Source: Turnera subulata (Eukaryota > Streptophyta > Magnoliopsida > Malpighiales > Passifloraceae). From it: DNA of 64,000 nucleotides. The stretch is taken from NCBI GenBank assembly GCA_028386065.3, contig JAKUCV010004776.1, positions 38,290 to 102,289 of the forward strand, written 5' to 3'. This document shows, in pieces, positions 20,610-60,810 of the stretch. The notes beneath the pieces were generated by a model. It was not told the DNA's origin and did not search any database. It saw only the letters and a list, made by a program, of their open reading frames with translations. The translations under genes and the position numbers were made by a program. Each line of letters starts with the position of its first letter. The first letter of the stretch is position 1.

Positions 20610-20735
20610 GGGTAAGGGAGGAACTTTAGGAAATGATAGGAATGGGCGGGATAGGGAAGACAAAAGAAAAAACTCGCTTTGTCTTCCCAATCCACCCATT
20701 ACCTACAACTTCCTCTAGCCCCATCTTCCTTACCC
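20610..20735 (-). ncRNA. MIR482: MIR482/2118-type precursor hairpin, copy 1
   Basis: Read on the minus strand, 20703-20681 forms the 5' arm and 20660-20639 the 3' arm of a stem, with an A/T-rich loop of about 20 nt between them. The stem extends outward through GAGGAA/TTCCTC to GGGTAAGG/CCTTACCC. The 22-nt 3p product begins UCUUCCCUAU and ends CGCCCAUUCC, in the style of known miR482-3p. The reverse complement encodes GMGGIGK, the P-loop of NBS-LRR resistance proteins, which is the known miR482 target site. 22-nt miR482/2118 members are known to trigger phased secondary siRNAs. A TATA box at 20818-20826 and an ACGCGT block at 20890-20895 lie upstream. Expression is not shown by sequence. Confidence 0.88.
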
Positions 20736-20817
20736 ATCTCCTCACTTCTGCTTCTTTCCTACCCTATCTTCACATTCACAGTACAAAAGCCACACACAGG
20801 AGGAGGGCAGACTAGTT

Positions 20818-20826
20818 GATATATAG
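20818..20826 (-). promoter_or_regulatory. TATA box of MIR482 copy 1
   Basis: CTATATATC on the minus strand, about 80 bp upstream of the stem-loop. The same CTATATAT core is at the same relative place in all four copies. Confidence 0.65.
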
Positions 20827-20884
20827 AAGGGCAAGATAATTGTAATCAACTTGCACTTCCTCGAAGGCGCATGATAATGACTTT

Positions 20885-20901
20885 CAAAGACGCGTTTCCC
20901 C
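20885..20901 (-). promoter_or_regulatory. Conserved ACGCGT (CGCG-box) promoter block, copy 1
   Basis: Minus-strand GGGGAAACGCGTCTTTG. ACGCGT fits the VCGCGB box bound by CAMTA transcription factors. It lies about 64 bp upstream of the TATA box and is conserved in all four MIR482 copies. Confidence 0.5.
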
Positions 20902-20905
20902 AGGA

Positions 20906-21640
20906 ATATTATTAGTTTAACACTTTAACTAGAGTGAAAGAATGTTAGTAGTAATGAATTATTACCACTAAAGTCTAATCCCCAGGACTATTGTTACTAC
21001 TAGCTAAATTAGACTTAAAAAAAGATTAGTACTAAATTATTATCACTGAAGTGTAAACTGTAGAGCTACCACCCAACCCAAAATCATGGATCAACTAAAT
21101 TTGCGCTTATTTATCATCTTCAACTAAATTTGCGCTGTAGTACCAAGTTAAACTTTTTTTTTTTTTTAACGATAAGTTAAACTTGTTTTGTACTACACAG
21201 GACTATATTTGGATGTATGTACTGTGAATAGAAAATTACTCCACTACAAGTTACAACCGTAAAAAAGATAATTCAGCTGGACATGGAACTTGGGAGAGGA
21301 AGCTAGGTTGTTAAACCCAGCCCGACCATCAACCGGGAATTGGTAGCGAGTCAATAGGGTTGTTTAATTCTTCATAAATTTTGTAAAAAAAATTAAGGGG
21401 AAAAAATTTTATAAGGAGATCCAATCCAAAAAAACATCATAAACCAATATGATTAAAATAATATTAATAATCCTAATTTTGTGTTTTACACATTTAAGTT
21501 TCCTTAACTAGCCTTAGTCTTAATAAGCTAATGGGCCGTATCAAGCTAATGGGCCGTATCATCTCAAGCTTAATCTAAAATAAATAATTTTTTGAACTAA
21601 TAAATACACAGCCCAACTGAATCCTAATTCTAATAAATAA
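20906..21640. other. Upstream flank of MIR482 copy 1; end of duplication unit 1
   Basis: AT-rich, with runs such as TTACTACTAG and a segment at about 21223-21320 (GAAAATTACTCCACTACAAG through GGAAGCTAGGTTGTTAAAC) that recurs near 34280-34450 and 48965-49000, marking the unit's right edge. AAGCTAATGGGCCGTATC is duplicated at about 21526-21560. The LINE 3' tail begins at about 21641. Confidence 0.4.
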
Positions 21641-21686
21641 TTTTTTTTCTTTTTTTTGGTACTTCGGAAAGGAAAAACATAGTATA

Positions 21687-24600
21687 TCAGGTGCGCAAAA
21701 GAGCAGCACCAGATACATCAGAATGCAAAGAAACTAACACAGCAGGCGGAGGAGCCTGCCAAATACAAAGACGGGCCTCCTGACGAGCTCCTATTTTAGC
21801 CAATACATCAGCACTAGCATTCGCCTCAAGAAAGATGTGGCAAATACTGCAATCCCAGGATCTAGAGATAAACTCCTTGATGTCCAAAACCAGCGCAGCA
21901 AGAGGATGAGTCACAGAGACACCCGTAGAAATTAGTTGGACAGCAACCTTGGAATCACTCTCCAAAATCACCTTTTGAAACCCACGCTCCCAGGCTAGCA
22001 GGAGCCCCTGCTTAATATCGAATAACTCAACAGAAAGAATTGTTGTGAACCCTATATGAGCAGAAAACCCACATATCCATCCCCCCAAATGGTTCCTTAA
22101 CAAACCACCAGCCCTAGTGATGCTTGGGTTCCCTAAGGCACTCCCATCGACATTAATCTTTAACCACAAAGCAGGGGGAGGCCTCCAATTCATCCAATGA
22201 GCTTGACGTAATGGGGTTATAGGGGCTGCCGAGGAGAAGGCAGCTTGATACTCATTCACCAAACTCGTCGCCGTATCAGCTAGATTTCGAGGAGGGGTCC
22301 GCTCATTCTCAAACACAAACAGATTCCGGTCTGTCAGCTCATTCTCAAAGCCGCCAATATAGCACAACAAAGAAGCTTGACCAACCCGGTCTGTCAGCTC
22401 CATTGGCATTAGCATCAAACCATGACAACAAATCAGCAGCACAAAAGGAGCTACGTGAGGCTGCAAGCACCACCAGATCCCAAACCTCCCCAACCCTCAC
22501 ACACTTCCGTAGTAGATGGTCTACATCCTCCTCCACCAGCCCACACAAGAAACAAATGGTAGAATTAGCAATCCCTATAGCATGCCTGCGGGAATTTGTC
22601 AACAGTCGATTCCAGCGAACCAACCAGACATAAAAAAGGATTTTATAAGACAACTGCAAGCTCCATACCCATCTCCAATCAATGTTCTGCACAACACCAA
22701 CATCCTGAGTTAACCACTTGTAGGCCGATCTGGCAGTAAATGCACCATTTGAAGCGAGCCCCCAATACAAAATGTAGAACCCGAGACCGAGAGAGGGACT
22801 GCTTGGATCTGGTGGAGCACATTCTAAGGGAGCAAGCCATGAAGAACTGTGCCATCCCATTCACGATTGAAAATTATGTCCAAAACCCTCATGTCCTGCA
22901 ACTCCACAGGTACCTCGGCAACACACAGTTCTGAGAGGGATGAAGCACCAACCCATCTATCATGCCAAAGAGAGACTTCGTCTCCCGAGCCTATACGCCA
23001 CCTAAGACCATCCTCCAAAGCATTGATACTGCGGACAATCCCCTTCCAAAGTGGTGATGTTAACACACTTGGAGAATGTGACAAAAGGTGATCATTCCCC
23101 AAGTATTTGGCTCGGAGTAAATTCGCCCACGGCTTATCCACCTCCTGCAACAAATCCCATCCAACCTTACCCAACAGGGCTATATTGTTCTCACGTGCCC
23201 GGTAAATGACCAACCCCCCCTAGACCTTGGGCTTAGTAACAGCATCCCAATTAACAAGGTGGATGCCGCCAGACTCACCTCGTGACCATAAGAAGTTTCG
23301 AACTAGCTGATCAATAGCTTGACACACGCCAGAAGGCAACCACATTGACTGCATCGTGTAAATAGGAATGGCTGTGAGTGTGGATTGTATCAAGGTAACA
23401 CGCCCCACCAAAGTTAGATGCTTGGCCTTCCACGATTGGAGCCGCTGCTGAATCCGGTCAAGAACATACTTGAAAGTGGCTCGTATGACCCTACCACTAA
23501 GCAGAGGCACTCCCAAATAACTCCCCAAATCCTCCGTAACTACCATATTCAACTCCCCCCGGAGAAAAGCAATCCTTTGGCGCGGTACACATGGTGCAAT
23601 ATAAACAGAGGACTTTTCCGGACTAAGCTGCATCCCGGAGAAGTCACAAAAACACTGTAGGGTATCGCGTACCACTCTTGCCTGCTGAATAGTAGCTTCA
23701 GTAAATAATAACACATCATCGACAAACATCAAATGGGAGAAGGATGGGAAAGTTTGCGATGCTCGAACAGGCTTCCAATCCTGATTTTGAACTTTCTGAC
23801 AAATTAACAGAGAAAGTCTCTCCATACAGAGGACGAAGAGATACGGGGACAACGGATCTCCTTGACGTAAGCCCCTTTTGGCTACAAATGAAGGTAATTT
23901 CTCCCCATTCCACAAAAGAGAAAAGGTAGTAGAGGACACACATGCCATAACCAAAGGCTGCGGAAACCCAAAAAAAAAGAAGAGTGTCCTCCAAAAAGGA
24001 CCAATTCACCCGGTCATAGGCCTTAACCAGGTCAATTTTGATTGCCAAAGCCCCCTTAAAGGAATGGAGTAACTCTTGGGCAATGATGATATTATTCCTT
24101 GTTCCATGACCCGACAAAAATCTTGCCTGTATAGGGCTCACAAGATCATGCAACAGAGGCCAGATGCGATTCATAATTACCTTCGTAAGCACTTTATAAA
24201 GGACATTGCAGAGGCTAATAGGCCGGAACTGCGATACCACTTCCGGGACCTCCACCTTAGGTATTAACACCACCAAAGTTTCGGCAAGCTTAAAATCAAT
24301 GGAACCACTAGAGAAAGCTTGTTGCACCATATCCCACAGATCATTACCAAAAATTTCCCAAAATGTCTTGAAAAATATCGGCTGGAAGCTGTCCGGCCCA
24401 GGGGCCTTGTAATTACCCATGGCGCAGAGGGCATCCCAAACTTCGCACTTATCAACAGCCCGTAATAAGGACACCGCATCAGCCCTCGCAACAGATGGAG
24501 GAGCAGCTGTAAGCGAAGGGGCACTGACCACATCCATAGTCACACCAAATAGGTCCTGAAAGTGAGAAGAAACCTCCTGCTGGATGGATAAGAATAGGGT

Positions 24601-25754
24601 CCGACGACCACTCCCCTGCAATTTTCAACCTCTCATTCTTGTTTCGTTTGCGTCATTAGAATGTGGACAAGTGGTAAAACCGAGTGCATTGATCACTCTG
24701 TACAATCCATTGATTCCGAGATTTTTGGAACCAGAGGATTTCCTCTTACCGTAGCACCTCATTGTACTGCCCCATCAATTCTTTCTCCAAAGAAACCAAG
24801 GCTGAATCAGACCGGGATGCCAACAGCTGTTGGACCCCATGCAACCGCGCTAACAAATGGCGTTTTTTTCGAAACACATTTCCGAAGACCTCATTATTAA
24901 ACTTTTGCAAGGCCAATTGAACCCTGTACAGGGACTGCTCAAACTGACCAGCCGTGTAAGACCAAGCATCAGAAACCACCTGCTTATAGCCATCATGCCT
25001 CAACCAGATAGCCTCAAAGCGAAAAGGCCTAGCAAGAGGAATATTGGAGACACCAAAGAAATAAAGAAGAAGAGGGTGGTGGTCCGAATATGTCCTCGGG
25101 AGATGCACAACTGAGGCCTCAAGGATTGATTCTCGCCACTCACTGTTTGCAACTGCCCTGTCTAAATGACGTTGTACAGTTCTCACATCCCGAACACTAC
25201 AAATCCATGTATAAGCAGGGCCACAGAACCCCAAATCCAACAGATGCAGCTCATTCAGCCGGTGATTGAACAATTGAGCCCGGGTGGGTGAGAAGGCACC
25301 GCTAATAGTTTCAGACGAGGACAAATAATCGTTAAAATCGCCCATCAAAAACCAAGGGGCACTACCCGGAAGCTGAATATTATTAAGATGCTCCCAAATA
25401 GAACTACGAAACATTACATTAGGATGCCCATAGATGGCAGACTCGTACCAAGAGGCACTCGACAAAAGAGAGAAGTGGAAGGTGAGACACTGTGGGTGAG
25501 AAGCCACAGGAGACAGCAAAACCCGGTGACTGTGCCATAATACCCAAATTCCACCCGAAAAAACCAACGGGATCCATACGAACCACCGAATCAAAACCAA
25601 GGCTAAGAGAGATCCGAGGCGCTCTAGCACCACCAACCCGAACCTCACAAAGAAAGGCCACATCCGACCGATGCTGCACACACAAATCCCTGAAACTCTG
25701 CTTAAACTCCCGATTCCCTGCTCCACGAAAATTCCATGAAAGGACTTTAATCAT
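21687..25754 (-). pseudogene. LINE ORF2: endonuclease, reverse transcriptase, RNase H (broken)
   Basis: Starts at the ATG at 25754 (IKVLSWNFRGAGN, the endonuclease N-terminus). A frameshift near 25.56 kb moves the endonuclease to another frame, which continues with WFLMGDFND and TYSDHHPLL. Stops and frameshifts around 24.6-24.75 kb separate it from the reverse transcriptase (VSQFRPISLCNVLYKVLTK, AIKIDLVKAYDRV). Another shift near 23.9 kb leads to LRQGDPLSPYLFVLCMERL and the catalytic FVDD. Then come zf-RVT (ICFLCGLVEEDVDHLL) and a terminal RNase H (KINVDGSALGNP, VILESDSKVAVQL, FLEANASADVLAK). About 1,350 residues would be normal. The reading frame is broken at least five times, so no active polymerase is made. 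Confidence 0.9.
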
Positions 25755-25918
25755 TAGAAAAGAAGAGTAGAAGTAACCTGGAACCCCAACTCAAAAGAGA
25801 GCATCCATTGGAACCACTAGACGGTCATTCTCCAACAAACCCGACGAAGCATGAACCAGCTGCAACTCTTGTTGCTTAGTGCCCACAGACCCATCAGAAG
25901 GCTTAGGGTTCTGCTCTT

Positions 25919-27379
25919 TCACACTGAGAGAGGATTTGGAATGAAGGGAGCTGAAGGTAGCGAGAGCAAGGACGTAGGGGGGACTTGCAGAGGCACTGGT
26001 GCAGCAATTAAGGGTAAGGAAGGTTCTTGAGCGGCTAAGGATGGGCTAGGGGAAACAGTAACTAGGCCAAGAGGGATCACAGAAGGAGCCCGAGGAAGTT
26101 TATCCTTCTTAGGAGGTCCACTAGTCTTGACACTACTAGACGGGCCCGAAATGGGCTTATCAGCAGGCCCAGTAGAGAAGACCAGACAGGTGCTTGTTGA
26201 AAGATCAGATCGTCCACGTTTTAGACGTGGGGGCACCACCCTCATCATATCATTGACCATGGGAACTCGTGGCAAACTAGAAACTGGTTCAACAGAAGAC
26301 ATGTCCTCTGATAGTGCCGCAAACCGATTAACCATTTTGCCACCTGGACCATTTTTCTGCTCAATCGGATTCCAGTCACGAGGCGGACGTCGGACTGGTC
26401 TACCAACCACCATCCACTCCCCAAAGTCTTGCAAAGCCCTAGTAGGAGCAACTGGCACATCATGTACATCCTGCTCCATCTGATCAGAGACCGCAGCACC
26501 AGAAACAGGATCAATGATGGAAATAGGAGTAGAGCATTTTAAGGGCGAAGTACAGGCACTAGCATTATGGCCATAAGTACCACAGGACATGCAGATAATA
26601 TGCAGGCCTTCATAATGCACTTTGAAATGCTCGCTATGAATGGTTACATCAGGGATAAGAGGCAAAGTAAGATCAATCTCCATACACATACGAGCATAAA
26701 GGGCTCGCGAGGTAGTTGAGGTATTCGAATCCACCCGAATGAGGCAACCAACACCCCTGGCCACTGTTTCAAGAAAATCATCATAATAATACATCAAAGG
26801 AAGTCCAGGAAGCCTTACCCAGGCAAGTGTCCTCTCAATAACATCCAACTCAGGGCGAAACTTAGGAAACCACTGGCGAACTATGAGGTAATGCCCTTGC
26901 ACCATCCACGGGCCTCGCTTGATCACCCGCTCTATGTCATCTGACTGAGAGAGTCGTGCGAGAAAGCAACCAGCACCCAGGTCCAGCAAGTCCAGTTGTC
27001 CCTTTGGCTGCCAAATCTGCACCAAACGGGTGCGGAGCGCTTTATAACCAATATCACGGCCCAACACTCGAAGGATCAATGAATCACGCCAAGGGAGGCA
27101 TAACTACTTGTAGTAGTCCTTATCCAATTCAAAGGATGGATGGAGGCGATTGCCATCAACAAAGCTCATGCAAACAACCCCAGCTTCAACCAAGTCCACA
27201 GCAGGTTGCCTATCCTTGGCACGCTCTTGGTCTCACATAAGAGACTCCAAGAAGGACATACGAGGAGAGCTAGTCTCAGCTATATCAGTATCATGGATAT
27301 CAGGGGTTGGATCAGGGGGTTTGACAGGCAACGATGACGGAGGGGGTGCTAGGGGAGGATAGGTTTCAGAGGACGACAT
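25919..27379 (-). pseudogene. LINE ORF1: DUF4283 / zinc-knuckle protein (two in-frame stops)
   Basis: The frame opens at the ATG at 27379 (MSSSETYPPLAPPPSS). It is interrupted by TGA at 27235-27233 and TAG at 27106-27104, and resumes without a shift at PWRDSLILRVLGRDIGYKAL, the start of the DUF4283 domain typical of plant LINE ORF1. A CX2CX4HX4C zinc knuckle follows (CMSCGTYGHNASAC), then a proline-rich tail. It would be the RNA-binding chaperone of the element. Apart from two stops in one frame the ORF is continuous, so the insertion is not very old. Confidence 0.88.
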
Positions 27380-27643
27380 GTCAAAAAAGACTAATAATTT
27401 TTTTTCGAGACCATTGTTATGTGTAAGTCCACTAAACACCAGCCATAATCGTTGCTCTTTTCTTTTCACGCGCGACGATCTTCGTCTTCTACCTTCTATT
27501 TTCTTTGCTTTTCCAACCATTAGTACATTATACCTCCCCGCTTTGAGTTGCAATTTTCTCCCCTCTATCTTCTCCGTGTTGGAAAATTGTGATATATGTG
27601 GTTGATCTTGAAGAGATACACTCCACGACATGTTCCATGTCAC

Positions 27644-28196: not shown

Positions 28197-28206
28197 CTAA
28201 GCAAAT

Positions 28207-28958: not shown

Positions 28959-28968
28959 CTAAGCAAAT

Positions 28969-29807: not shown

Positions 29808-29825
29808 TGGACCTTACCAGTTGTT

Positions 29826-30061: not shown

Positions 30062-30111
30062 TGGACCTTACCAGTTGTTCATCTTCCCTCCACTTTACAA
30101 AAACCAACACT

Positions 30112-31565
30112 GACAGCAGTTACTGCGCCTCAGTTGCTGCCTGTCGGCTACGTATATATCTAACTGCTTAACTATGTTTTCCAGTGAGGTGATACTAAGT
30201 TTTGGTCGTTCAGGAACTGTGATGAAATTCCTACATGCTACAAAAGCGAAAAGAAGGTCATTTCAGGTTTTTAGTAGCAGAGGGAGCTCCTGGGTTTTTT
30301 TGCATCTTGGCCTACTGGTTGCCATGTGTAGTTATTGAAAATAGCAACTGTAAACTTTCTCATAATATGTTTTTATTTGGTAATGAATCAGGTATCAAGG
30401 GCATTCCCTTGCCAAAGACTTGGTTGGAAATTGGAAGAGGTTTGCAAACTACAGTTATTACAGATTCTGCGATTTTTCCCATAATTTCTCGGGCTAACAT
30501 GGTAATTGCCAACTTCAGTGGTGTTTCCTCTACAATCAAGGGGTTTACTGGATAATATTTAGCAGCTTAATCTTGAAAATTCTGACGAAGCTGTTGGATT
30601 GAATATGGTTGCACTTGCTGCACAAAAGCATGCTGTTCCAATTGTTGTACTTGCTGGTACGCATAAGGTATGCTGTAGAAACTTCATCCAAAAGCGCATA
30701 TATGTTTCCTTTGGGCATGCTCTGAATTCTCCCCATTTAGAAGAGCAACTCTGAAGTTGGTTAGGTGTAAGCTAAACAGCCTTAGTCGTTCCATTTTATT
30801 AAAAACCCGATAGCTTTTTAGTTTTCAACACTTGAAGAGAAAAATCCACAACTATGTTTGGCTGATTGCAGGTTTCCTGTATTGTTTCTGGCTTTGTGCA
30901 TGTCTTTTTCCTGGTTTCCTGGTTGTAGTGGATATAAAAGTTCATGTTTTGAGGTTATACTAAAGTGCTAACTAACCAAATTCTATATCCTCTTAATTAC
31001 TTCATTCCTTCTTCCAGTTATTACTTTGGAATTGGAAGCGGCACCCCTCGTCTTCACGTTATCAATCCTGCCTTTGAATATGTTCCACCAGAACTTGTTA
31101 GTCTCATTGTTACAGAAATGTAGGATCATCTTTGTGTTACCGTTGCAGTGTCAATTAGCCTTAACAAGCACTTCTCGCTGCTTTCCTTTACAAACCGTCA
31201 TGAATATACCATTCATTCTTTTCCTGATTATTTGCAAGAATAACCTTTAAATAAGTTTGTTCCATCACAGTATGCTCAGTGAGAACCACCTATATAGCTT
31301 CTCCAACTATTGTTGGTTTTGTCATTGTATTTTGTAGGAAAGATAGAAGTCTCTATCATTTCTTCGATTTCATAGTACATAAATTTTTCCATTTATGATT
31401 CTTGGTCTAACATTGTCTATTTTATTTTGCAGAGGAGGATATAAACCATCATATATATGTTCCGGCTTCCTGCCGATTATTGCTCTAGTCATGATTTGCT
31501 TCTGCAGAAGAAAACTGTTCCACCAAACAGTGAGTGTTCATAAATGTACCAGAATGCTGAGAGGA
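30112..31565 (+). pseudogene. eIF2B beta pseudogene, exons 5-9 (duplication copy 2)
   Basis: A genomic copy that keeps introns, so it arose by DNA duplication and not retroposition. Exon 5 (from 30185) matches but has an extra base at GTTTTTAGTAGCAG, which shifts the frame. Exon 6 (30392-30501) carries a 7-nt insertion after GACTTGGTTG. Exon 7 has lost its first half including HAVMANGGV. Exon 8 has lost most of its 5' part. Exon 9 (from 31433) has extra bases in the SYMYR segment and has lost the stop. Exons 1-4 are absent. The product could not work as an IF-2B domain. Confidence 0.9.
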
Positions 31566-33018
31566 TCTACAGCTGAATTATTTGTTACGCCTTTGTATTG
31601 TTTACAGGGATAGAAAGTGCAGCATGTCTTTTTATGTTTCCCCGGAACTGATCATTGCTAGTACTAACTTTTTGCAGGCATACACTTGTGACAGAAGTTG
31701 TCGAACAGGGAAAAAAAGCCCTTTGGAGATTTTGGGTTATCTATTTTGTTTTTGATACATAAAATGGATGCTAATGTAATATAGGAGGAAGAAAACATTA
31801 GGATTTGAGATTTTTAATGTCTTAATGTATGTGGGAGCTTGGATAAACTTAAGTATGACCCAAAGAAAGAACGTCGTGGGAAACACAAAGTATTCTATAA
31901 CTTGTTTAGATTTTGCACAACCTTGTGCTTCGTAATTTTGGGATAATTAATGGGAGAGAAGTTTCATGGAATATTAACGTTAAAATCATCCCATAGTTTA
32001 GTTCCTGTTTTCAAGTTACGGTATAGTTAGTGTACTCTCTACCTGCTCTTCAAATTCGTGAAAGGTTAGTAAGAAATGCATCTGTCATGTGATCCCTGTC
32101 TGAAATCAAGAGAATGAATATAAGTCAAGCAACTCAGCTGTCATGGATGTTAAAGAATCGATTAAACTAGCAATGGCTAAGAGGACTACACAGAATCACT
32201 AGGAAACTGATTCACAAATCGTTTGGAAGGCCATGGAGGGGGTGTGGACAACATCTAGCTAGGAATCTACCTTCGATGTATCCCTCGAACCGCAAACAAA
32301 GTTGCTGATTGGTTTGCAAAGGCAACAGTTAGAGATTGGGCTTCCTCCATCATGGAACAGGACTGTATGAACAAAAGAGCTCATTAAATGCGGAAAAGAA
32401 TGCCTTTCAACAGAAAGCAAACTGGAGAAGTATGGAATAAAAGCAGGACACCACCACACATATATGCTTTCTGATTAAAAAGAAAGAAAGAAAAAAAGAG
32501 CTGGAAACCACAATCTTTTCAAAGATGTGGATATTTACCCATCCTACCAAAACTATGAATCCAATAATCAGCACTTCGTAACAAAAGGGAAAAGACATGA
32601 ACACTTCCCCTGCCTGTCATCCCCCCCCTGGACAAAACTTAAAAACCGAAGACCACAAAACTGGATAAAGCCACCTCCAATCCAACTTAGTACGAGGTTC
32701 TTTTGGTGGTTATTAGCTTATCAACACCTCTCCATCATATGCTAATTAATTCCAAACATAAATTAATTCTGAACAAAGAACTAAAGGCAAACGGTAGGTA
32801 TAATACAAATCAGACAAACTACTTCTTAATGAACAACAAAATAAGTTAATTCACCAGATCCAGATCCAAAAACTACAGAGAGGGTAATAGATCCCTGAAA
32901 CTCACAATATAAATTGGGTATGAAACCTAAAACCAACTTATCCAAAAACAACGAAAGAATGGAAAGAAAGAGAAAAAAAAAAAAAAGGCATGTAAGGTAA
33001 AAGGGGGGAGAGAAGGAA
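31566..33018. other. 3' flank of pseudogene copy 2; downstream part of MIR482 copy 2 unit
   Basis: Matches the flank of copy 1 piecewise (for example AAATGGATGCTAATGTAATA, CCGTGGGAAACA, GGTGGTTATTAGCTTATC, GAACAAAGAACTAAAGGCAA), with insertions of unknown origin at about 31900-32450. No protein gene seen. Confidence 0.5.
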
Positions 33019-33143
33019 GGGTAAGGGAGGAACTTTTAGGAAATGATAGGAATGGGTGGAGTTGGCAAGACCCAAAAGAAAACCCTAGGTCTTCCCAATC
33101 CACCCATTACCTAAAACTTCCTCTAGCCCCATCTTCCTTACCC
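33019..33143 (-). ncRNA. MIR482: MIR482/2118-type precursor hairpin, copy 2
   Basis: On the minus strand the 5' arm is 33111-33088 and the 3' arm 33070-33049. They pair with one bulge and one G-G mismatch over about 20 bp, and the loop is about 17 nt. The outer stem has the same GGGTAAGG/CCTTACCC pairing as copy 1. The 22-nt 3p product begins UCUUGCCAAC and ends CACCCAUUCC, the UCUUGCC subtype, different from copies 1, 3 and 4. The complement reads GMGGVGKT. The promoter elements are conserved. The protein-coding partner of this unit is a pseudogene, whereas the hairpin is intact. Confidence 0.88.
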
Positions 33144-33213
33144 ATCTCCTCACTGCTTCTTTCTGCCCTCTCTTCACACACACAATACAGCAACCACAGA
33201 GGCAGACCAATCC

Positions 33214-33221
33214 ATATATAG
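33214..33221 (-). promoter_or_regulatory. TATA box of MIR482 copy 2
   Basis: CTATATAT on the minus strand, about 70 bp upstream of the stem. Confidence 0.65.
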
Positions 33222-33275
33222 ACAGAACAGAAGGGCAGTGCAAGGAACTTCCTCGGCGGTGCTGGATAATGACGC

Positions 33276-33292
33276 CAAAGACGCGTTTCCCC
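33276..33292 (-). promoter_or_regulatory. Conserved ACGCGT promoter block, copy 2
   Basis: GGGGAAACGCGTCTTTG on the minus strand, identical to copy 1 over the 17 bases, about 60 bp upstream of the TATA box. Confidence 0.5.
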
Positions 33293-39392: not shown

Positions 39393-39537
39393 GTCTACCC
39401 ACCTTAAAAAGAATTTCGTCCCCAAAATTCCGTCGTCTTATCTGTGGGTCCTACCACGATAAGCTTCTGGCACACTCTGCCAGGTGTCCAATCTCAACCC
39501 GAGATACCGCTTATACCCTTAAGCGACATCTCGTCCT

Positions 39538-39545
39538 CTATAAGA
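39538..39545 (+). promoter_or_regulatory. TATA-like box before antisense ORF A
   Basis: CTATAAGA, 36 bp before the ATG at 39581. The resulting leader would be only about 10 nt. Confidence 0.35.
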
Positions 39546-39580
39546 ACCAAACCTCATGACTGGCATGCTCACACACAGTC

Positions 39581-39958
39581 ATGGACTCTCCACTGAGATC
39601 AAGAACAACCTCAGACTCCGAGAACAACAGCTACATCGGTGGCATTACCTTCCCGACAAGCTCCGATGAAGAACCTCCGAAGAAACGGTTCAAGACCAAC
39701 ATCTTCGACCTGAAGGAACACATGGTCGTCTCCCCAAAACGGCGAAAGAAGCGCGCCGGCAAGAAAGTTGAAGATCGAAAGGGCAAGGCGGCGGCTGAAA
39801 GCAGCACTCCGCAGCAGACACTGACACAGCTGAACGTCTCTCTGAAGAAGATTAGCTCGGCGGTGTTGCAGATCGAACTGGCGTGCGCGGAGCTCTTCCC
39901 TCACATGAAGAACATACAAAAACTTGTAAAAGATCTAGAGAAGCAAGTAACTCAATAG
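39581..39958 (+). CDS. Antisense ORF A in LARD: basic, coiled-coil protein, unknown function
   Basis: 125 residues, not recognised from any family. Residues 1-31 are rich in S, T and acidic residues. Two basic clusters look like nuclear localisation signals: PPKKRFK at 32-38 and PKRRKKRAGKK at 52-62. Residues 81-125 have a heptad-like pattern of L, I and V suited to a coiled coil. Codon use is rich in G/C at third positions, unlike the host exons nearby, which suggests a different origin. The orientation is opposite to the retrotransposon. ATG, stop and AATAAA-type signals (AAATAAATAAAATAAG near 39992-40008) are present. Antisense extra ORFs are known in some plant Ty3 elements of the Tat lineage; this is a different layout. 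Confidence 0.55.
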   Translation: MDSPLRSRTTSDSENNSYIGGITFPTSSDEEPPKKRFKTNIFDLKEHMVVSPKRRKKRAGKKVEDRKGKAAAESSTPQQTLTQLNVSLKKISSAVLQIELACAELFPHMKNIQKLVKDLEKQVTQ

Positions 39959-40704
39959 AGTACTTCTTCTCCTGTTGTAAAACTATTATGAAATAAATAA
40001 AATAAGTTTCTTTTTAAATCAAAATCCCTTGTGTTACGAAATCTCTTGTTAAACAGAAAAAATAAAACACCTCAAAACAAAATAAAAATCAACTATAAGA
40101 ATATAAAATTAAATATTAAGAAATTAAAAGCAAAACTCGTTTAACAAAATCAAAACATAAAGAAGTTAAAACAAAAATATATTTCATGATCGGTGCTCGT
40201 TTCGGACGTGAACATCCACGAACCCAAGAAACGTAACACGCGCAACTAACGGTGTCGTCTGTCTCCCTCGAGGAAAAGACATCTGTTAACTCACACGGTG
40301 ACGATCACGAGCACGTACTGTGTCCCTCGAAAGAAATGTTACCCACTTGTTCACAAATTCCACATGAGCCAAAAGCGTCTGTCAAGTCTCGCATCTCTCC
40401 ACGATGTCCGAGCAGGTGCAAGCTTGTCGCACATGCACTCCACTCGAGGTATGGTCCCATCAGTCCAGCCTCAACGGTCACGGATGCATGTGATAAAAGA
40501 TGCAAGGAAAATATAGAAAAGCCATAAAAAGAATAGACAAAGTAGCCAGAGCGAAAGAAAATCATGAGATGGAAAAAGGCTGAAAAACTCTAGCATTGTA
40601 ACCCAAAAAACGTATAAAGCAACGAGGCAATAAATAAAGGCAACGGCAAGTTTCAAAAAGCAAATCCTGAAAATCGAAAACAATAATCACGCTCCCCATA
40701 AGTG

Positions 40705-40712
40705 TATAAAAG
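40705..40712 (+). promoter_or_regulatory. TATA box before antisense ORF B
   Basis: TATAAAAG in the context AGTGTATAAAAGACGGAGCG, 114 bp before the ATG at 40819; a strong match to the plant TATA consensus. Confidence 0.5.
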
Positions 40713-40818
40713 ACGGAGCGGTGAAGTGTAAATTATCAAAAGCATTTTAGAGTAACAAAACGCTAAGGCAACCAAAACCACAACGTTCAACGAACAAAAC
40801 ACCACACGCTTCCAAAAC

Positions 40819-41505
40819 ATGATGCCTGCTCCATCTTCTGTTTTCTTCGTCGAAGGTGCCAACCTAGGCAGAAGAAACCGTCTGGCCTATAGCATGGTCA
40901 ACGAGCGTGCTGAAGAGCTACCGAACGAGCTCGGCAGGGTGCCGCGTCTAGTCTTTGTCGACGAACTCTACTCATCGCGGTTCTTCGTCACTCCCATGGA
41001 AGAGGTATTCTTCCTAGAGGACCGCGGCACTCTGAGGACCTCCTACTACGGCTCGGCAAACTCCATCATGTTCTTCATCTCCGAAAGGCTACAGGAGTTC
41101 AACTTGGAGTCCACTTGCCATACTCTGGAGCAAGGTACCTACTACCAGCTCTCGATGACGGCTCAGAGCATGCCCAGAGTAACTCGTCTGCCGGTAACTT
41201 GGCCAAAGGCTCGACTACTGGTGTGGAACTGTAGAGGAGTCGCAAGGCGTTCCCAGGAGTTCTCGCGTACTCTGAGGGACTTGAAGAACCAATACAAACC
41301 AAACATGGTTCTTCTGACGGAGACCCAGTGGCAACCTCAAGACGATCACGGCCTCATCCCACTCCGGTTCCCTCAAGCAAACCGGTTCGAGCTTCCAGGT
41401 CAGGACAACAGGGGCGGCATATGGTTCTCGTGGAGCGACAGCATCCAAGTCAACATCAACAACGACCCCACTAGCTTCAGGGTCAATGTCGTTCCGAGAA
41501 GATAA
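40819..41505 (+). CDS. Antisense ORF B in LARD: N-terminal half of a LINE-type endonuclease fused to an unknown domain
   Basis: 228 residues. Residues 1-130 are not recognised. Residues 131-226 resemble the start of the apurinic-type endonuclease of plant L1 ORF2: RLLVWNCRGVAR (with N137), KPNMVLLTETQ (with E168), and GGIWFSWSDSIQVNI for the second strand pair. The protein ends there, so the later catalytic GDFN and SDH motifs are missing and nuclease activity is not expected. It could keep a DNA- or partner-binding role (inference). GC-rich third positions contrast with host genes. A TATA box lies upstream, and A/T-rich polyadenylation-like sequence follows the stop (TATAAAATATCAATGTAATA). 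Confidence 0.6.
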   Translation: MMPAPSSVFFVEGANLGRRNRLAYSMVNERAEELPNELGRVPRLVFVDELYSSRFFVTPMEEVFFLEDRGTLRTSYYGSANSIMFFISERLQEFNLESTCHTLEQGTYYQLSMTAQSMPRVTRLPVTWPKARLLVWNCRGVARRSQEFSRTLRDLKNQYKPNMVLLTETQWQPQDDHGLIPLRFPQANRFELPGQDNRGGIWFSWSDSIQVNINNDPTSFRVNVVPRR

Positions 41506-41776
41506 ATGTATTTTCTTTTTATAAAATATCAATGTAATATTTATCTTTGTAATGGAATTATCAGTATTAATAATAATATTTATATTCCCGCTTATCTATG
41601 GCATCATTTACCTCTTATGTGTATGTTCTGCGACAGTTGACGTCTCTTGACTGGATCCATAATGCACTAACTAAAATGATATAAAATAATAAACAAATGG
41701 AGCGAACTATGCAAAAAAGGACAACAAACTCACAAAAACTGCCCAACAAGACCTAACGCCCGCTCCGCTACCAAAA

Positions 41777-44700
41777 TGAAACGCCCCGTCACGTATTTAC
41801 CTTACACAGTAAACACGTGCCGGAACTGTGACGACCCAACCAATCAAACCCAGCATACAGTGTATAAAACATAAACTCTGGCTCAACAGCCCAAAGTATA
41901 AACTACAATATGGCCCTACGGCCCATCATCAACACATATCACCCGAACCCGGGATCATCTATAACATCATAATCGGCCCAATGGCCCAACAAAATAATAA
42001 ATTGCACAGCGAAAGACTTATAAAACTCACAAAGACACTGTATGCGATACTAATGCAAACTATGGATCTGAGTCCTGTCCAAGGGATAACGCCGCAGCCT
42101 GTCTGGTATGCCACATACCTGAACCACAAATAACTCAACCTACGGGATGAAAGCCCGCAGGCGAGGGGTGAGTCCAAAGTGCTCACCGAAGAAGGATAAA
42201 CAGAGATATATAATCAACCGTAATACTTTCGAAGTAATACAACCATCATAACAGAAGAATCTAACACAAACAACACGACAGAGGAATCCAACACAACAAC
42301 ACGACAGAGGAATCTTACTAAATCATATCAAAGCCAAGACCAAAGAATGCTTAATTATTTTTATTACCAATTTTATCTTCCGGGCCCCGTCACTGGATAA
42401 GCTAGGGTCGTACCTGGTTATTAACTAATTCTGGATGCCAGGCCCAACCACAATCCGGGATCAACATCCCAATATCACAAATCCGGGATCAACATCCCAA
42501 TATCACAAATCCGGGATCAACATCCCAATCAACCAACCAACCGGCCATGACACCACAGAATTAGTCTCTAACCATCTAGTCGTACCACTACTTTCCAAGT
42601 GACAATTATATCATCATCTCAAATTCAATTCCAATTCCATTACTCTAACATCAATTACTCAACTTTTATCATCACAGATTATTTCTCAAGCTCAACCAGT
42701 CAACAATTTCATATCACTGATACTCACAATTAACAGCTCAATGGTTACTCACAATATCACAAACCAACAGCACATTTCAGCAACTTCATGGCAAAATCCA
42801 CAGCAAATAAATAGCAAACAGTAATCATCAACAATTTCCATAATAATCATATAACAGCCAATAATTGATTCAACAGTTCAATCAAACAACAAAAACGACA
42901 CAGTAATACAGGCACATATCCAAGGTTATCCATCCTCACCTGATGTATCTCTGGAACTGCTATCCGGTCAACCTTGATACCCTATATATATACACATAGT
43001 AACACAATCACTTATAATGCACCGACAAGAAGATTATGCATGATGCCGGTTTAATAGTATTTAGACGGCTTATCGGTTCATTTCATTATCTCCTCAATTA
43101 CCTTATTACTAAACAGTTCATCTGACCTGATGGCAATTAACTGATTAAGTATATCCAGCCAATATAATTAATTTTAGATTAAAACCGAAGCCGAGCGTCC
43201 AAGCCGTTATCCCAATCCTTAGGTCGCTTAAGATAAGAAAATACATAATTACGTTGTTTAAATCATATATAAGAGATCTTATTATAAAGTATATAATATT
43301 CCATAAAGTACTTATACCCGATTAAAATAGTAATAAATACGTATTTGTTTAGCAGCTAATGAAAATAGTGGTAATTCGCTATACGATATATGTATATTCT
43401 TGTACAAGATTAAAATCAGTAATTAAAATAGGATATAGATCCAATATCTTAGCTTAGGATTACGGAAATAAAATAATAAAACCAATACATGTGTAAACAT
43501 GTTTAATATTATAATTAATAGCATGTCTAGTAAAATATTAACAATTGTACCGTGGTATATTGTAATACTCAAAGATGATAGATTTGACAAGTTAACTTAG
43601 GTTACTATTTGTAAATGCCTCTAAAGAAAATTAGTTCAAGTTATATATAAAACCTGTAAAGGTATAATCAAATCCAAATAATATCGAATTATTAGCCGAT
43701 GAGCATGGTTCCAAAACAATTTGTTAATCCGTCAATTAACAACGTTAATGAGTCTATAATCATGTCCGTTAAGAGTCCGTCCCGAGAACATGGGCTTCCG
43801 CACGTTCGGCCCGTTTCCGAGTCCGTTGTGCAAACCGAGCCCAAACCCGAGCCAAGGTGAAATGAGTCCAAGGAATTACCCAAAGGTCCATTCCCGAGTT
43901 TGCTAGAAAATTCCCGGGACTGCCGGAGGCTCGCCGGAATCCGGCCAGAAACACTGTTGACGGACCCTTCTCGGCTACTGTTCGCCATTCCACCAAACAC
44001 CAAATCCTTCCCACCACACGTCCTGTTCATCATCACACCCGCCATGCCCCCGCAACCCTCCAGTGACCAGTTTTCACCACTCACCATGTCCACAGTCCAA
44101 AATTCTAGCACCCACACTCACGGCAACTCCACCGGAAACATCAAATTCCCAAAACATCAACAAAAACGCACTCGATCAGTCCAATCCATCCACAATCGGG
44201 ATAAAAGAAAAGAAGGGAGCCATGGAGGAAAAGGTAAAGGCCGTCCTTACCCTCACAACCACGTGGTCGGCGACGCAAGCAGCAGCTTCCCCGTTGGCGT
44301 CTCCGGCTTCGGGTCGTGAGCAAAGGCTGAGGAGATCGAGCGGCACGAACCAGATCGGGGTGAGGCGACGACGGCGGCAGGGGAAGATGGAGAAAGAGGA
44401 GCAAGGCGAGAGAGGACGGATGGTCGGCGAGGAGGCGGCGCGAGGACAGAGGCGGGGCAGGAGTTCTCGGCAGCAGGGGGCGGCGTCGGCTTGGGAGGAG
44501 GTGGTGACGATGGTGGTCGACGGCGCCAAGGGAGTGAGAGGAAGGCGGCTGGGCGGGCTTGAGGGAGGAGAGCAGAGCAAGGCGACGGATGGCTTCGTCG
44601 GTGACAGAGCTGAGAGCAGCGGCGTGTTGGGTGTGGCCGGCAGCAAAGGGGGGGAAAGAAGAAGATAAGGGGAATTAAAAGAAGAAGAAACAAGAGAAAC

Positions 44701-45302
44701 AGATGAAAAGAAGAAGAGAGAGAGGTGAGGTGCTCGGGTGGTGCTCGGGTGAGGGAGAGAAAGAGGAGATGAAGAAGAAGGAGTGCAGAGAAAATAATTG
44801 AGAGGGAAGAGAGAGAGAGAGAGGTGTGCGTTGGGGAAGGAGAGTGGGTCGGTTGGGGAAAAGAAAAAGCAGAAGAATAATGGGGAGAAGAAGACAGAGT
44901 GGGGGCAGGAAAAAAAAAAAAAGGAGAGGGGCCGACATGTCGGTCACGGGCGAGGAGAAAAAGAAAGACGGGAGAGAGATAGGAGAGAGAAAGAGGGAGA
45001 AAGAAGAAAAGAAAAGAAGAAAAGGGAGAGGTACAGGGGTGTATCCGTAATTTTCCTTCCCGAGTCCAAAAATATGACTTAGGTTCGGAAAATCCGATTA
45101 TTTCCCCCTAGCGTCGCCCAAGTCTCAGAATTGGAAACCGAGGCTCGGTTAGTTAGAAAGATACTCGGGAAAACCCTCGGTTACGAAAAACGACGCTCGA
45201 TTTACCTTGAATTAATTACCCAAGATTAATTCAACAGTAAATCACGATAAAAAGACTTTTACAGTCCCGGTAAAAATCCAAAATTTTACCCGGGCTGTTA
45301 CA
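41777..45302 (-). repeat. 5' LTR (right copy) of the LARD element
   Basis: 3,526 bp, colinear with the left LTR. In plus orientation it starts TGAAACGCCCC and ends GGGCTGTTACA. It contains the same 28-bp tandem repeat (from about 42456). On the minus strand it is followed at 41776 by the primer-site-like TGGTAGCGGAGC. Confidence 0.9.
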
Positions 45303-45665
45303 CACCCTAGGTTGTTACCCGTCAAGAAACCGAGTGAAAAGTTGTAGGTTTTTAGTAGACAATGTTCGCAGACATAGAACAAAGTCGTCCTGTTGATGAA
45401 TCTGGGAGGGTAATTAAGGCATAAAAAGATAAAGTTGTGAACCCCAGTTGATCTAGATCATCTAAAACTTGATATTTTCGTATCATTATAGTTTATCAGC
45501 ATTTATTTATTGTTGATCACAATCTCAAATCTCAACTTTCAAATCATTGTTTCTTTTATTGTTTTTAGCCTAACGGAATGAGTCTGTTGATTAATTAATT
45601 TGCCTAGTCATTATGAATACGACCTTGTGTGATATCTCGATCTGTGCACTTGCAGATTTGGCACA

Positions 45666-46690: not shown

Positions 46691-46949
46691 GTTTTCACAA
46701 ATGAAGCATTACAGCTAAATTATCTGTTCCGCTTTTGTATTGTAGGGACGATCTGCTTTCCCTCAATTTGTGAGGGGCGGTGAGTTTCAACAAATACATC
46801 AATCGTGTGATCCATCGCTGAGATCTAGAGAATATAGCAGCAGCAACAAAGAATAAAGTGCTGTATGAACAAAAAACAAAGGCTCATGTGGAAAATAGCG
46901 AATTAGAAGTAAAGCAAAAAGGGTAAAGAATGGAATAAGAGCTGGAAAC

Positions 46950-46986
<37 letters not shown>

Positions 46987-48343
46987 TTTGTTATAAAAGA
47001 AAAAGGAGTTGTTGGAAACCACAGGAGCACAATCTTTTGGGAGATTACACTTTGTACGTGAATGAATGTTTATCCTACCAAAACTACTAACCCAGTAAGT
47101 TCCATCACCACTTCCGGCTGTATTATTACAACGGACGCGGCCAATAATAATTAACATGACCCAGGAGGAGCTGAAAAAGGGACTCGCTTGCTGGATGAAG
47201 TGTAGCTCAATCAGAAACAAACAAACAAAAGAAAGAATGAAAGAACCAATATCCACTGAAATGTATCCCAACCATGGCAATCATTTCCGCCAAACCATAT
47301 CAGGCAAACAAAATGGTTATATTGTTTAGCAAACAAATATCAGAAGAATAACTGCACAAGGTTAAAAAAAAAGGCCCAATACACAAAAGGCACTTCTAAT
47401 TCCCGAATCAGTAGAGGGTCGTTCGATTATAAGCACAGAGAAGAGCTCTTGCTCTCTTCCACACGCAAATTCGTGGGTAAAATTCTTTTTTGTGTACTTT
47501 CACTTTCTCGATTTCTCAAATGTTTCTCAAATGATGTCCCTGTTCTTTTTTTTTCAGGGATTTTGTCCCCCAACTTAGAGTTACCGTTTGATTTTGTCCA
47601 TTTTACCTTTGTTAGCAGGTGGTGACTCTTTGGACGACGGCCCTAATTATTAGTTAGTTATTTGCTTATTTTTATACCTATTAAAGCTAAAATTTAAGAA
47701 AAATTTGACTAATTAAGTAATAAATATCATCCTATATCTTTTCTCCCCTTTTTCCAAATCATTAAAGCTAAAATTTAAGAAAATTTTGTCTAATTAATTA
47801 CACCAATTAATTAATAAATGTCATCCCATAACTTTTTTTTCTTATGTTCAAATTTGTAAACTGTAAAATCAACAAACCCAAGCACCAACACAAACGACGT
47901 CGTGCCACTCCTCTTCACCAATCAGCACCTAAAGGCAAATCCAAATCGGAAGAACTAAAGGCAAAAAGTAGAATCAAACTCCAATTCAAACATTTTTTTT
48001 ATCTCACGAATGTCAAAGGAAACCAAGCTTAAAAACACAAGACCACAAAACTGGACAAAGCCACCACCAACTTGTAAGAGGATCTTTTGGTGGTTATTAG
48101 CTTATCAACACCTCTCCATCATATGCTAATCTAAATATGAAGAACTTAAGGCAAAAGGTATAATCAAATAACTATTTAATGAACAGCAAAACAAGGTGAA
48201 TACACCAGATCCAGCTACAGAGAGGGGATACATCACTGAAACAACAGTTTAATTTGGTATGAAACCTAAAACCTAACTTACCCAGAAAGAGATCAAGCAA
48301 GCAGGGAAAAAGGCAGGTAAGGTAATATGGGGGAGAGAAGGAA
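46691..48343. other. 3' flank of copy 3; downstream part of MIR482 copy 3 unit
   Basis: Matches the flanks of copies 1 and 2 in parts. Contains an (AT)n microsatellite at about 46953-46984. The stretch 47400-47990 is not shared with the other units and holds no recognised gene; its insertion is bracketed by two copies of an AAGAACTAAAGGCAAAAAG-like phrase (about 47958 and 48140). Confidence 0.45.
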
Positions 48344-48489
48344 GGGTAAGGGAGGAACTGAAGGAAATGATAGGTATGGGTGGAGTTGGGAAGACAAAAT
48401 TAGCAAACCCCTCTACAAATAGAGCTATTACCAAGTCTTCCCAAACCACCCATCACCTAAAACTTCCTCTAGCCCCATCTTCCTTACCC
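48344..48489 (-). ncRNA. MIR482: MIR482/2118-type precursor hairpin, copy 3
   Basis: On the minus strand the 5' arm is 48457-48435 and the 3' arm 48394-48373, with a loop of about 40 nt. The outer stem again ends in GGGTAAGG/CCTTACCC. The 22-nt 3p product begins UCUUCCCAAC and ends CACCCAUACC. Its complement reads on as IGMGGVGKTKLA, the P-loop plus the residues that normally follow it in NBS-LRR proteins, so similarity to the target gene extends beyond the mature microRNA. The promoter elements are kept, although eIF2B beta in this unit is shattered. Confidence 0.87.
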
Positions 48490-48554
48490 ATCTCCTCTCT
48501 GCTTCTTTCTGCCCTATCTTCACAATGCAAAAGCACAGGAGGCAGACTAGTCAA

Positions 48555-48562
48555 ATATATAG
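48555..48562 (-). promoter_or_regulatory. TATA box of MIR482 copy 3
   Basis: CTATATAT on the minus strand, about 65 bp upstream of the stem. Confidence 0.65.
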
Positions 48563-48628
48563 ACAGAAAGAGAAGAACATTGCAAGGGATTTCCGCGAAG
48601 GAGCAATGCCTGTGACGTCAAAAAGTCT

Positions 48629-48645
48629 CAAAGACGCGTTTGCCA
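48629..48645 (-). promoter_or_regulatory. Conserved ACGCGT promoter block, copy 3
   Basis: AAACGCGTCTTTGAG on the minus strand with ACGCGT at 48634-48639, about 72 bp upstream of the TATA box. The adjoining GGGG of copies 1 and 2 is changed here. Confidence 0.45.
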
Positions 48646-50454
48646 ATGAATATTTTTTTTAACATCCAAGTTCCAATGAATATTACTACTAGTTAACTAG
48701 AGTTAAAAGGAGGGTTTTTTTTTTTGAGGGAAGAGTTAAAAGGAGGTTAGAAGTAAATTACTACCACTAAAGTCTAAAGCATAGTTAATTATGAGTTAAA
48801 GAAGGTCAGGTCAGTTTGGTACACAAAAAAAAAAAGGTCAGGTCACTACCACCAAAGTCTAAAGCTACCACCCAAATTTGCTTTGTAGTACTAAATTAAA
48901 GTTCTCTCAGAGAAAGACTAAATTAAAGTTGTTTTGTACTACTAGTGGACTATAATAATGAGAGTGTACTGTAAGAAGAAAATTACTCCATTACAACTCA
49001 TCAAACAAAAAAAAAAAGTTACAAGTTGTGATGAGGAAGGTCATCAAGCGGAACTCAAACTTCAACCTTTGGGTCACGTGATTTTAGTCCATCCGTTGAG
49101 GTTATTCTGGACCAGTTTATTCTTGTGTGAGCTTGAGCCAAATGGCCCCTGTCTCGGGGTTGATACAGAGACCACAGTCGCTACGGCCCGGTGATCTGGA
49201 TACTTATGATTTAAATTTAAGCTCCCGTTGCAAGGGCACAATATCTAAAGGAGGGAAAAATATGATGATCCAAGTGTGGGTAAGAATCTTTTACATATAG
49301 ACTATTTTTATATAGATAGAAAAATTATTTTGACTTCATTAATGAACATAGGATATTTTATTCACTAACCAATTACATTGATAGTTATTTTCATTTAAGA
49401 TTACTTCTAGGTTATTTTGTATAATATTAATTCATGTATACCCATAAATTATATGTATTTTAAATCTTTATCTTCGCTTAAAATTTTGTTAGTTGCATCT
49501 TAAGTTTTTATTTATATTACTTATTATTATGATTTTAATAACCCCCACATATATAGAGATTATAATGTGTGATTTAACTTATGTAAATCAATTATTATTA
49601 AGATTTAGGTTGATCCGAACAATGCTCCATCTTAGTTCCTGAAAACTAGAAGAAACATTGCTTGTAAATATTGTATACGTACATAGAATTTCCCCCTTTT
49701 AAAGAACATATTAATACTAGTTGTAATGTCGTGATATTGCAGCTAGAGGTATGCCTTGCTTCCTCTCCACCCGTTTAAGCGGAGGAGAGAATCATTTACG
49801 GTCGCCCGTCAGACTACGCTCCGGGTAAAAGCAAGGAGCTCTTAGTCTTCAGGTTGCGGGATTGAGTCCCCATTGGATGATACTCATTGAGTCCCCATTG
49901 GATGGGTCCTCATTCCCTTGTTGAAACCAGTTCTATCCCTCTGCTTCGCTCCCCTACTGCCTACTAGTTCCTCCGCCCGCTCTCTATTGGATTAAATTTC
50001 ATCTAAAGAGCCATAGGTTCTATACCAGTGATAACACTGAAGATAATTTGAAGTTGGAAAATGTGAGTAACAAGAACATGCTCTAATAACTACTACCCCT
50101 TTCCCATTTGCCAACAAAGCGACCAAACAGAAAGAACTCATTAGCATCGTTGTCCACAGACACAGATGCGGTGTAACAACTTTATTTGAATTGCTATCAA
50201 AGATTTAACGAAAGGATTGGTGGTAAGAGTAGCTTAAAAAACTATCATCCCCATCTAAAATGCCAAGGTAAGCACGCGCAGTGGTGGTGGTAAATGGGTA
50301 GCAGTGCAGGTCAATCATAAATCCTGAATGACAAAGAGAGAGAGTCATAAAGGGTAGATCCATAAAGAGAAGGGGTTTTACCTCGAAATAAAGACTTACC
50401 CAGTTGTAGCCGATCATTACCAGGAGCTGCGAAAGCAACGTTGTAGAGAAGGAA
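48646..50454. other. Spacer between MIR482 copies 3 and 4
   Basis: Up to about 49000 it still resembles the upstream flank of the other units. Then it is AT-rich. At about 49740-49990 a GC-richer patch (GCGGGATTGAGTCCCC, duplicated CATTGAGTCCCCATTGGATG) may be a retroposon remnant but could not be classified. No eIF2B sequence was found beside copy 4. Confidence 0.4.
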
Positions 50455-50628
50455 GGGAAAGGGAGGAACTCTAGGAAATCACAGGAATGGGCGGGCTTGG
50501 GAAGAAACCCACACAGATGAACAACTACCCACCTCCCTCTCTAAGGTTGAGGTTAAGGTTGCCCACCTTCATCTTCTTCCCGTGCCACCCATATCCCGAA
50601 ACTTCCTTCAGCTCCAACTTCCTTACCC
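50455..50628 (-). ncRNA. MIR482: MIR482/2118-type precursor hairpin, copy 4
   Basis: On the minus strand the 5' arm is 50598-50573 and the 3' arm 50505-50484, with a longer loop (about 67 nt) than the other copies. The 22-nt 3p product begins UCUUCCCAAG and ends CGCCCAUUCC, the copy closest to the soybean-type miR482a-3p as I remember it. The complement reads GMGGLGK. The flanks keep the AGTTCCTCCC/GGAAGT outer stem, but the copy is more diverged than copies 1-3 and lacks a recognisable eIF2B neighbour. Confidence 0.83.
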
Positions 50629-50699
50629 CTCTCCTCTTATCCATCTTTCATGAGTTTCCCATTTCGCAGATGAACGAACTAGACCCAACTGATAGGTCA

Positions 50700-50707: not shown

Positions 50708-50716
50708 ATACAATAT

Positions 50717-60769: not shown

Positions 60770-60810
<41 letters not shown>

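Follow-up and report, generated by a model that had tools for sequence, protein, structure and literature searches.

A 64,000-nt stretch of the Turnera subulata genome (assembly GCA_028386065.3, contig JAKUCV010004776.1, positions 38,290 to 102,289 of the forward strand; hereafter the window, numbered from its first letter) very probably carries four paralogous MIR482/2118 microRNA (miRNA) genes that arose by local duplication, lie on one strand and should make 22-nt miRNAs directed at the P-loop of nucleotide-binding site leucine-rich repeat (NBS-LRR) mRNAs. That miR482/2118 forms a family, targets the P-loop and occurs in clusters is already established. All four 22-nt 3′ arms lie on the minus strand (20639-20660, 33049-33070, 48373-48394 and 50484-50505 for hairpins h1 to h4) and read, in that order, TCTTCCCTATCCCGCCCATTCC, TCTTGCCAACTCCACCCATTCC, TCTTCCCAACTCCACCCATACC and TCTTCCCAAGCCCGCCCATTCC; every one begins with UCUU, ends with CC and is antisense to codons for GMGGxGK (4/4). 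A preliminary description of this DNA had claimed just such arms in four minus-strand stem-loops, and we located the 22-mers at the places it gave, each within a stable hairpin; the hairpins are real, and its reading of them as a known kind of gene is supported. The predicted features are as follows:

20601..20743, minus strand: MIR482/2118 precursor hairpin h1 (minimum free energy (MFE) -81.8 kcal/mol for 20600-20775; evidence from fold z and Rfam model RF01911)
20639..20660, minus strand: predicted mature miR482-3p of h1, UCUUCCCUAUCCCGCCCAUUCC
20680..20700, minus strand: predicted star of h1, 21 nt (MFE fold)
33010..33151, minus strand: MIR482/2118 precursor hairpin h2 (fold z; RF01911)
33049..33070, minus strand: predicted mature miR482-3p of h2, UCUUGCCAACUCCACCCAUUCC
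33088..33108, minus strand: predicted star of h2, 21 nt (MFE fold)
48335..48499, minus strand: MIR482/2118 precursor hairpin h3 (fold z; RF01911)
48373..48394, minus strand: predicted mature miR482-3p of h3, UCUUCCCAACUCCACCCAUACC
48434..48455, minus strand: predicted star of h3, 22 nt (MFE fold)
50445..50637, minus strand: MIR482/2118 precursor hairpin h4, the most diverged copy (fold z; RF01911)
50484..50505, minus strand: predicted mature miR482-3p of h4, UCUUCCCAAGCCCGCCCAUUCC (alternative register 50482-50503)
50573..50594, minus strand: predicted star of h4, 22 nt (MFE fold)

Each folded region gave one long stem, with fold z values of -7.10 for h1 (20600-20775), -6.23 for h2 (33010-33180), -8.60 for h3 (48335-48500) and -6.78 for h4 (50440-50640), and for each hairpin 0 of 200 dinucleotide shuffles matched the native fold stability. 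The predicted miRNA was paired at 20/22 bases in h1, h2 and h3 and at 19/22 in h4 in the MFE folds, which bears out the earlier claim of about 20 bp of pairing with the 5′ arms (z -6.2 to -8.6 overall; the fold check proposed there had set its threshold at ~16 paired bases). The structural criteria of Axtell and Meyers for plant miRNAs reportedly call for a foldback below 300 nt, at most five duplex mismatches and no secondary stem in the duplex; the four foldbacks measure 142-193 nt with 19-20 of 22 bases paired, in agreement with those criteria. A 22/21 duplex asymmetry, as predicted here for h1 and h2, is linked to the triggering of phased small interfering RNAs (phasiRNAs). Across the whole 64 kb and on both strands, no further 22-mer lay within five mismatches of any of the four; at six mismatches there were four, three of them on or overlapping the complement of the h1, h2 and h3 5′ arms and one elsewhere (52718). 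A pattern derived from the four 22-mers matched those four alone, a check of uniqueness only, since it was built from them.

Family membership was supported by full-length alignment to the Rfam model RF01911 (MIR2118), although at scores below its gathering threshold: all four hairpins aligned over 1-170 of its 170 positions, with 62.5 bits for h1 (E 4.7e-10), 52.1 for h2 (1.6e-7), 61.4 for h3 (8.7e-10) and 49.0 for h4 (9.2e-7), and they were the top four of 33 matches up to E 10 in a relaxed search of 20500-50800. The model has in common with h1-h4 the full-length structure, the long lower stem, the miRNA on the 3′ arm and the CCCAU/CC core. As displayed for h1, h3 and h4, the alignment also takes in the lower stem, whose length is thus a family trait and no local novelty. 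RF04185 (MIR2118_2) matched the hairpins more weakly (23.7-35.3 bits vs. a gathering score of 120). A covariance model made from h1-h4 recovered in the window the four hairpins, their plus-strand counterparts and one further, weak match; this match (60774-60945; 17.4 bits, E 0.014) was rejected as a fifth copy, being GA/CT low-complexity sequence, and the plus-strand matches of both this model and RF01911 were ascribed to the palindromic stem.

Published mature sequences point the same way. Eleven sequences (seven from cassava, three from peach and one from poplar; peach miR482a, poplar miR1448 and the tomato members were left out) were compared with h1-h4 at shifts of -4 to +4; taken over their full length, all of them differed from h1-h4, by 2 nt at the least. 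The peach ppe-miR482c, UUCCCAAGCCCGCCCAUUCCAA, has 20 identical nt with h4, in a register 2 nt further 3′ than our prediction, and differs in its last two bases (PMC11642718). A cassava variant, UCUUCCCUACUCCACCCAUUCC, differs from h2 and h3 at 2/22 nt each, from h1 at 3/22 and from h4 at 4/22, and is listed as setting off the production of phased siRNAs from disease-resistance genes (PMC4730657); cassava miR482/2118 is 22 nt long, has NB-LRR targets checked by 5′ rapid amplification of cDNA ends (RACE) and triggers phasiRNAs, and 0/7 of the compared cassava sequences were identical to any of h1-h4 (PMC4730657). No exact mature string was found in the literature searched (U-spelled for h1-h4, T-spelled for h2 and h4; T-spelled h1 and h3 lay outside the search), and of six shorter strings one was found, in peach. 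Together with the folds and the Rfam alignments, these near matches in peach and cassava support the membership that the preliminary description had proposed, with h1-h4 as four added members of a well-studied family.

The differences among the four 22-mers fall in a pattern that preserves the P-loop. Six positions vary, five of them third codon positions with respect to the P-loop codons and the sixth the first base of the variable residue's codon, so that GMGG[V/I/L]GK is kept in 4/4. Placing at least five of six variable sites in the seven third positions has a hypergeometric P of 0.0043, a guide rather than an exact value because the copies are related. Such a wobble pattern is expected for this family, given that in cotton the variable nucleotides of miR482-targeted P-loops are always third codon positions (PMC3877274) and that diversification of nucleotide-binding leucine-rich repeat (NLR) genes is said to drive miR482/2118 (PMC10575705). 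Searching all six frames for G[MIL][GAPS]G[VILMFS]GK gave four matches, all on the complement of h1-h4, and GxxGxGK[T/S] gave three, all at h1-h3, h4 being missed because it reads GKK. The complement had also been expected to appear in annotations as short P-loop-like open reading frames (ORFs); this holds at h3, where a frame of at least 100 codons is open (48277-48615), but not at h1, h2 and h4, where an in-frame stop stands shortly ahead of the motif. No NB-ARC domain was found by Pfam in the 20 of 74 ORFs of at least 100 aa that were scanned. We infer that h1-h4 target the P-loop of NBS-LRR mRNAs and thereby tune resistance genes.

The cluster spans 30.0 kb, its copies lying 2.1, 12.4 and 15.3 kb apart, and its duplication is visible in the surrounding sequence: the segment 17741-20953 recurs as a related copy at 30110-33341, with 72-94% identity in pieces, and 48022-48594 resembles 32632-33252 at 76% identity. 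A broken long interspersed nuclear element (LINE) lies on the minus strand between h1 and h2, with zf-RVT, reverse transcriptase, endonuclease and DUF4283 in separate ORFs (tested ORFs 22348-27103). Between h2 and h3 lies a long terminal repeat (LTR)-type element (35677-45307), flanked by the target-site duplication CACCC (35677-35681 and 45303-45307); its LTRs run from 35682 to ~39392 (with ~180 extra bases near the end) and over 41777-45302, and are 96.8% identical over 3358 aligned bases. The single internal ORF of this element that was scanned had no Pfam match, so the element may be non-autonomous.

Upstream of every hairpin stand a TATA-like box and an identical 13-mer:

20820..20827, minus strand: TATA-like box TCTATATA of h1
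20885..20897, minus strand: promoter 13-mer AAACGCGTCTTTG of h1
33215..33222, minus strand: TATA-like box TCTATATA of h2
33276..33288, minus strand: promoter 13-mer AAACGCGTCTTTG of h2
48556..48563, minus strand: TATA-like box TCTATATA of h3
48629..48641, minus strand: promoter 13-mer AAACGCGTCTTTG of h3
50701..50708, minus strand: TATA-like box TCTATATA of h4
50764..50776, minus strand: promoter 13-mer AAACGCGTCTTTG of h4

In the whole window the 13-mer is confined to these four promoters, once in each, and precedes the TATA-like box by 70, 66, 78 and 68 nt in h1 to h4; the start of the box lies 64-84 nt from the hairpin base. No longer word than the 13-mer is shared by all four upstream stretches of 400 nt, and when every stretch was shuffled the longest shared word was 8 nt (1000 trials). 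Because the flanks of h1-h3 are related by descent (these three share a 16-nt upstream word), a stricter test left h1-h3 intact and shuffled h4 alone, which gave at most 10 nt (2000 trials), and replacing h4 with random pieces of the window gave no more than 9 nt (1664 trials). Masking the 13-mer left TCTATATAT as the next common upstream word. In its leader and in three segments downstream of the hairpin, h4 has diverged from the other copies at 0.49-0.68 of aligned sites, yet it keeps the 13-mer and the TATA-like box at like spacing, an indication of a specific input into NLR-controlling miRNAs. Separately, a perfect tandem duplication of a 78-bp unit (79-base copies overlapping by 1 base) occupies 50852-51008, ~75 nt upstream of the h4 13-mer.

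The rapid stress response element (RSRE) has the core CGCGTT, and the CAMTA core is (A/C)CGCG(C/G/T) (PMC10417383). The 13-mer holds CGCGTT on its other strand (six in the window on both strands, 4/6 of them in the 13-mers) and an ACGCGT core (seven in the window, 4/7 in the 13-mers). We tentatively suggest, from these motifs, that CAMTA-type factors might set miR482 output, and with it NBS-LRR levels, in all four copies as a calcium-stress switch, although other transcription factors may possibly act at the 13-mer instead. Were the CAMTA reading true and general, wound and calcium signalling would be joined to the brake on NLR genes; CAMTA3 has been reported to switch on RDR6 and BN2 of the RNA-silencing pathway (PMC10441928). 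Control of the MIR482 genes themselves seems little studied. Rice miRNA promoters have been surveyed for CAMTA and RSRE sites, with miR2118 unnamed in the main text (PMC8558223), a mulberry MIR482 promoter has been tested with a reporter (PMC5770470), a Eucalyptus one by a deletion series (PMC12787873), and promoter motifs have been listed for poplar (PMC3445618); a word search found no CGCG in the main texts of the latter three (PMC5770470, PMC12787873 and PMC3445618). In the literature searched, we found no report of miR482 genes with this arrangement of TATA-like box and identical 13-mer, and recognised no published link between a miR482 promoter and CAMTA, including in passages of PMC10417383, PMC8558223, PMC10441928, PMC5770470 and PMC11917013, the last of which has CAMTA once, merely within an NLR's name.

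These observations fit a scheme in which local duplication on one strand produced four paralogous MIR482/2118 genes, each most likely its own Pol II unit built of the 13-mer, a TATA-like box 66-78 nt downstream and then the hairpin. A polycistron is not favoured, given a TATA-like box for each hairpin and the wide spacing of the copies. Shared splicing from a conserved intron was likewise rejected, since the donor-like site downstream is GTAAGT in h3 and h4 and ATAAGT in h1 and h2. Once expressed from the predicted start sites, the precursors would be diced at the predicted sites to a 22-nt 3p miRNA complementary to the GMGGxGK codons in the P-loop of NBS-LRR mRNAs from other parts of the genome, and cleavage of these mRNAs would lead to RDR6-dependent phasiRNAs; differing mainly at codon-wobble positions, the copies may jointly cover synonymous P-loop variants.

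The hairpin stem below the duplex is itself conserved. With columns gapped in any compared copy dropped, and flanks taken for h1-h3 as the leader plus a 200-nt downstream segment, variable sites among h1-h3 numbered 5/80 in the lower stem, 6/22 in the mature strand, 2/20 in the star and 62/246 in the flanks (Fisher tests: lower stem vs. flanks P 1.1e-4, mature vs. lower stem P 0.012, mature vs. star P 0.24, mature vs. flanks P 0.80, star vs. flanks P 0.17). With h4 included, the lower stem still varied less than the flanks (15/80 vs. 139/222, P 8e-12) but not significantly less than the mature strand (15/80 vs. 6/22, P 0.38), so that its better conservation relative to the mature strand holds among h1-h3 but not for all four copies. 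One way to account for this, which we think improbable, is that the lower stem, besides guiding DCL1, yields a second 22-nt small RNA beside miR482-3p (e.g. UAUCAUUUCCUAAAGUUCCUCC in h1) by in-register sequential dicing. Its 3′ arm is 38-39 nt long in 4/4 hairpins, close to 22 + 16, the 22-mer adjoining miR482-3p starts with U in 4/4, and both arms are conserved in sequence with almost no compensatory change (1/48 pairs), which leaves room for such a product; the low variability relative to the mature strand would also fit, were it not lost when h4 is counted. But the long lower stem is already part of the Rfam MIR2118 model, guidance of DCL1 is by itself enough for stems of 15-17 bp to be retained (PMC8688358), and two 16-nt lower-stem pieces (h1 and h3, U-spelled; h2, h4 and T-spelled forms lay outside the search) were not found in the literature searched. 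DCL1 guidance is the simpler reading of the conserved stem.

Several results weigh against four functional MIR482/2118 genes with P-loop targets. All four RF01911 scores (49.0-62.5 bits) are below the curated gathering score of 85, and at gathering thresholds the sole Rfam match in the whole window was a tRNA-Arg. Two-sided change was seen at 1/48 consensus pairs, the sequences being very alike, and covariation was dropped as a proof of structure for this lack of variation. Outside the hairpins no NBS-LRR P-loop was seen in the six frames of the window with the two patterns above, which motif variants could escape, so any targets would act in trans. The TATA-like TCTATATA occurs as often as 11 times in the window, counting both strands, and the 14-mer GAAACGCGTCTTTG is not enriched at up to three mismatches (six matches vs. 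3.25 expected; 10/100 shuffles gave at least six), so what speaks for the 13-mer is its exact identity together with its place and spacing. There is also uncertainty about the register of the mature strand, and the true h4 product may be 50482-50503. P-loop-like sequence on both arms (5′ sense, 3′ antisense) and the long stems could instead mark inverted-repeat fragments of NBS-LRR genes, or elements like miniature inverted-repeat transposable elements (MITEs), giving siRNAs or nothing. We regard such an origin as highly improbable: 4/4 hairpins fit the miRNA family model end to end, including the lower stem, the frame open at h3 (48277-48612) matches no Pfam family, NB-ARC or other, at E 0.01, the frames at h1, h2 and h4 meet a stop shortly before the motif, and the low variability of the lower stem relative to the flanks among h1-h3 (5/80 vs. 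62/246, P 1.1e-4) indicates selection on the stem. It is less improbable, though still rather unlikely, that the loci are MIR482 by origin but at least one is now a silent relic, the functional unit being one or two genes. The divergence of h4, its 67-nt predicted loop and the transposable elements inserted in the cluster would suit a relic; against this, the fold, the P-loop-preserving variation, the TATA-like box and the 13-mer are kept in every copy, and h4 retains them despite the divergence of its flanks (0.49-0.68).

Populus belongs to the Salicaceae, in the Malpighiales. Its MIR482-MIR1448 locus has tandem MIR482 duplicates, as here, but the pair shares a single transcript that has an internal region of 80 nt, whereas h1-h4 each have their own TATA-like box, and its lower stem is more variable than the duplex (4 sites vs. 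1), the reverse of h1-h3 (PMC3475693). Tomato miR482a, b, d and g on chromosome 6 are likewise four neighbours, within 8.2 kb and with no coding genes between them, while the present cluster takes up 30 kb, with a LINE separating h1 from h2 and an LTR-type element separating h2 from h3; in the tomato miR482b subclade stem and loop are more conserved than miR and miR*, which resembles the h1-h3 stem (PMC4700956). The LINE and LTR insertions stretch our cluster, which without them would span roughly 15 kb, nearer to the tomato arrangement.

Elsewhere in the window, the tRNA-Arg (ACG) lies at 1591-1663 on the minus strand (60.3 bits), and a homolog of self-incompatibility protein S1 at 2234-2707 on the minus strand (PF05938, E 4.5e-27). 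A glycine-rich ORF with GGGIGKGGG-type repeats runs over 6695-7981 on the plus strand, the opposite strand being open in three frames. At 58462-60276 on the minus strand is a long RS/RD-rich ORF without a Pfam match, reminiscent of the N-terminal part of the U2AF large subunit, a splicing factor. An NPGR2-like protein, whose nearest matches make a host in the Malpighiales likely, is encoded at 12436-13704; when the 7986 candidates sharing most words with it were scored, the closest named records among the best 120 of 1188 matches were from Ricinus (79% identity) and Hevea (80%), and another record reached 85%.

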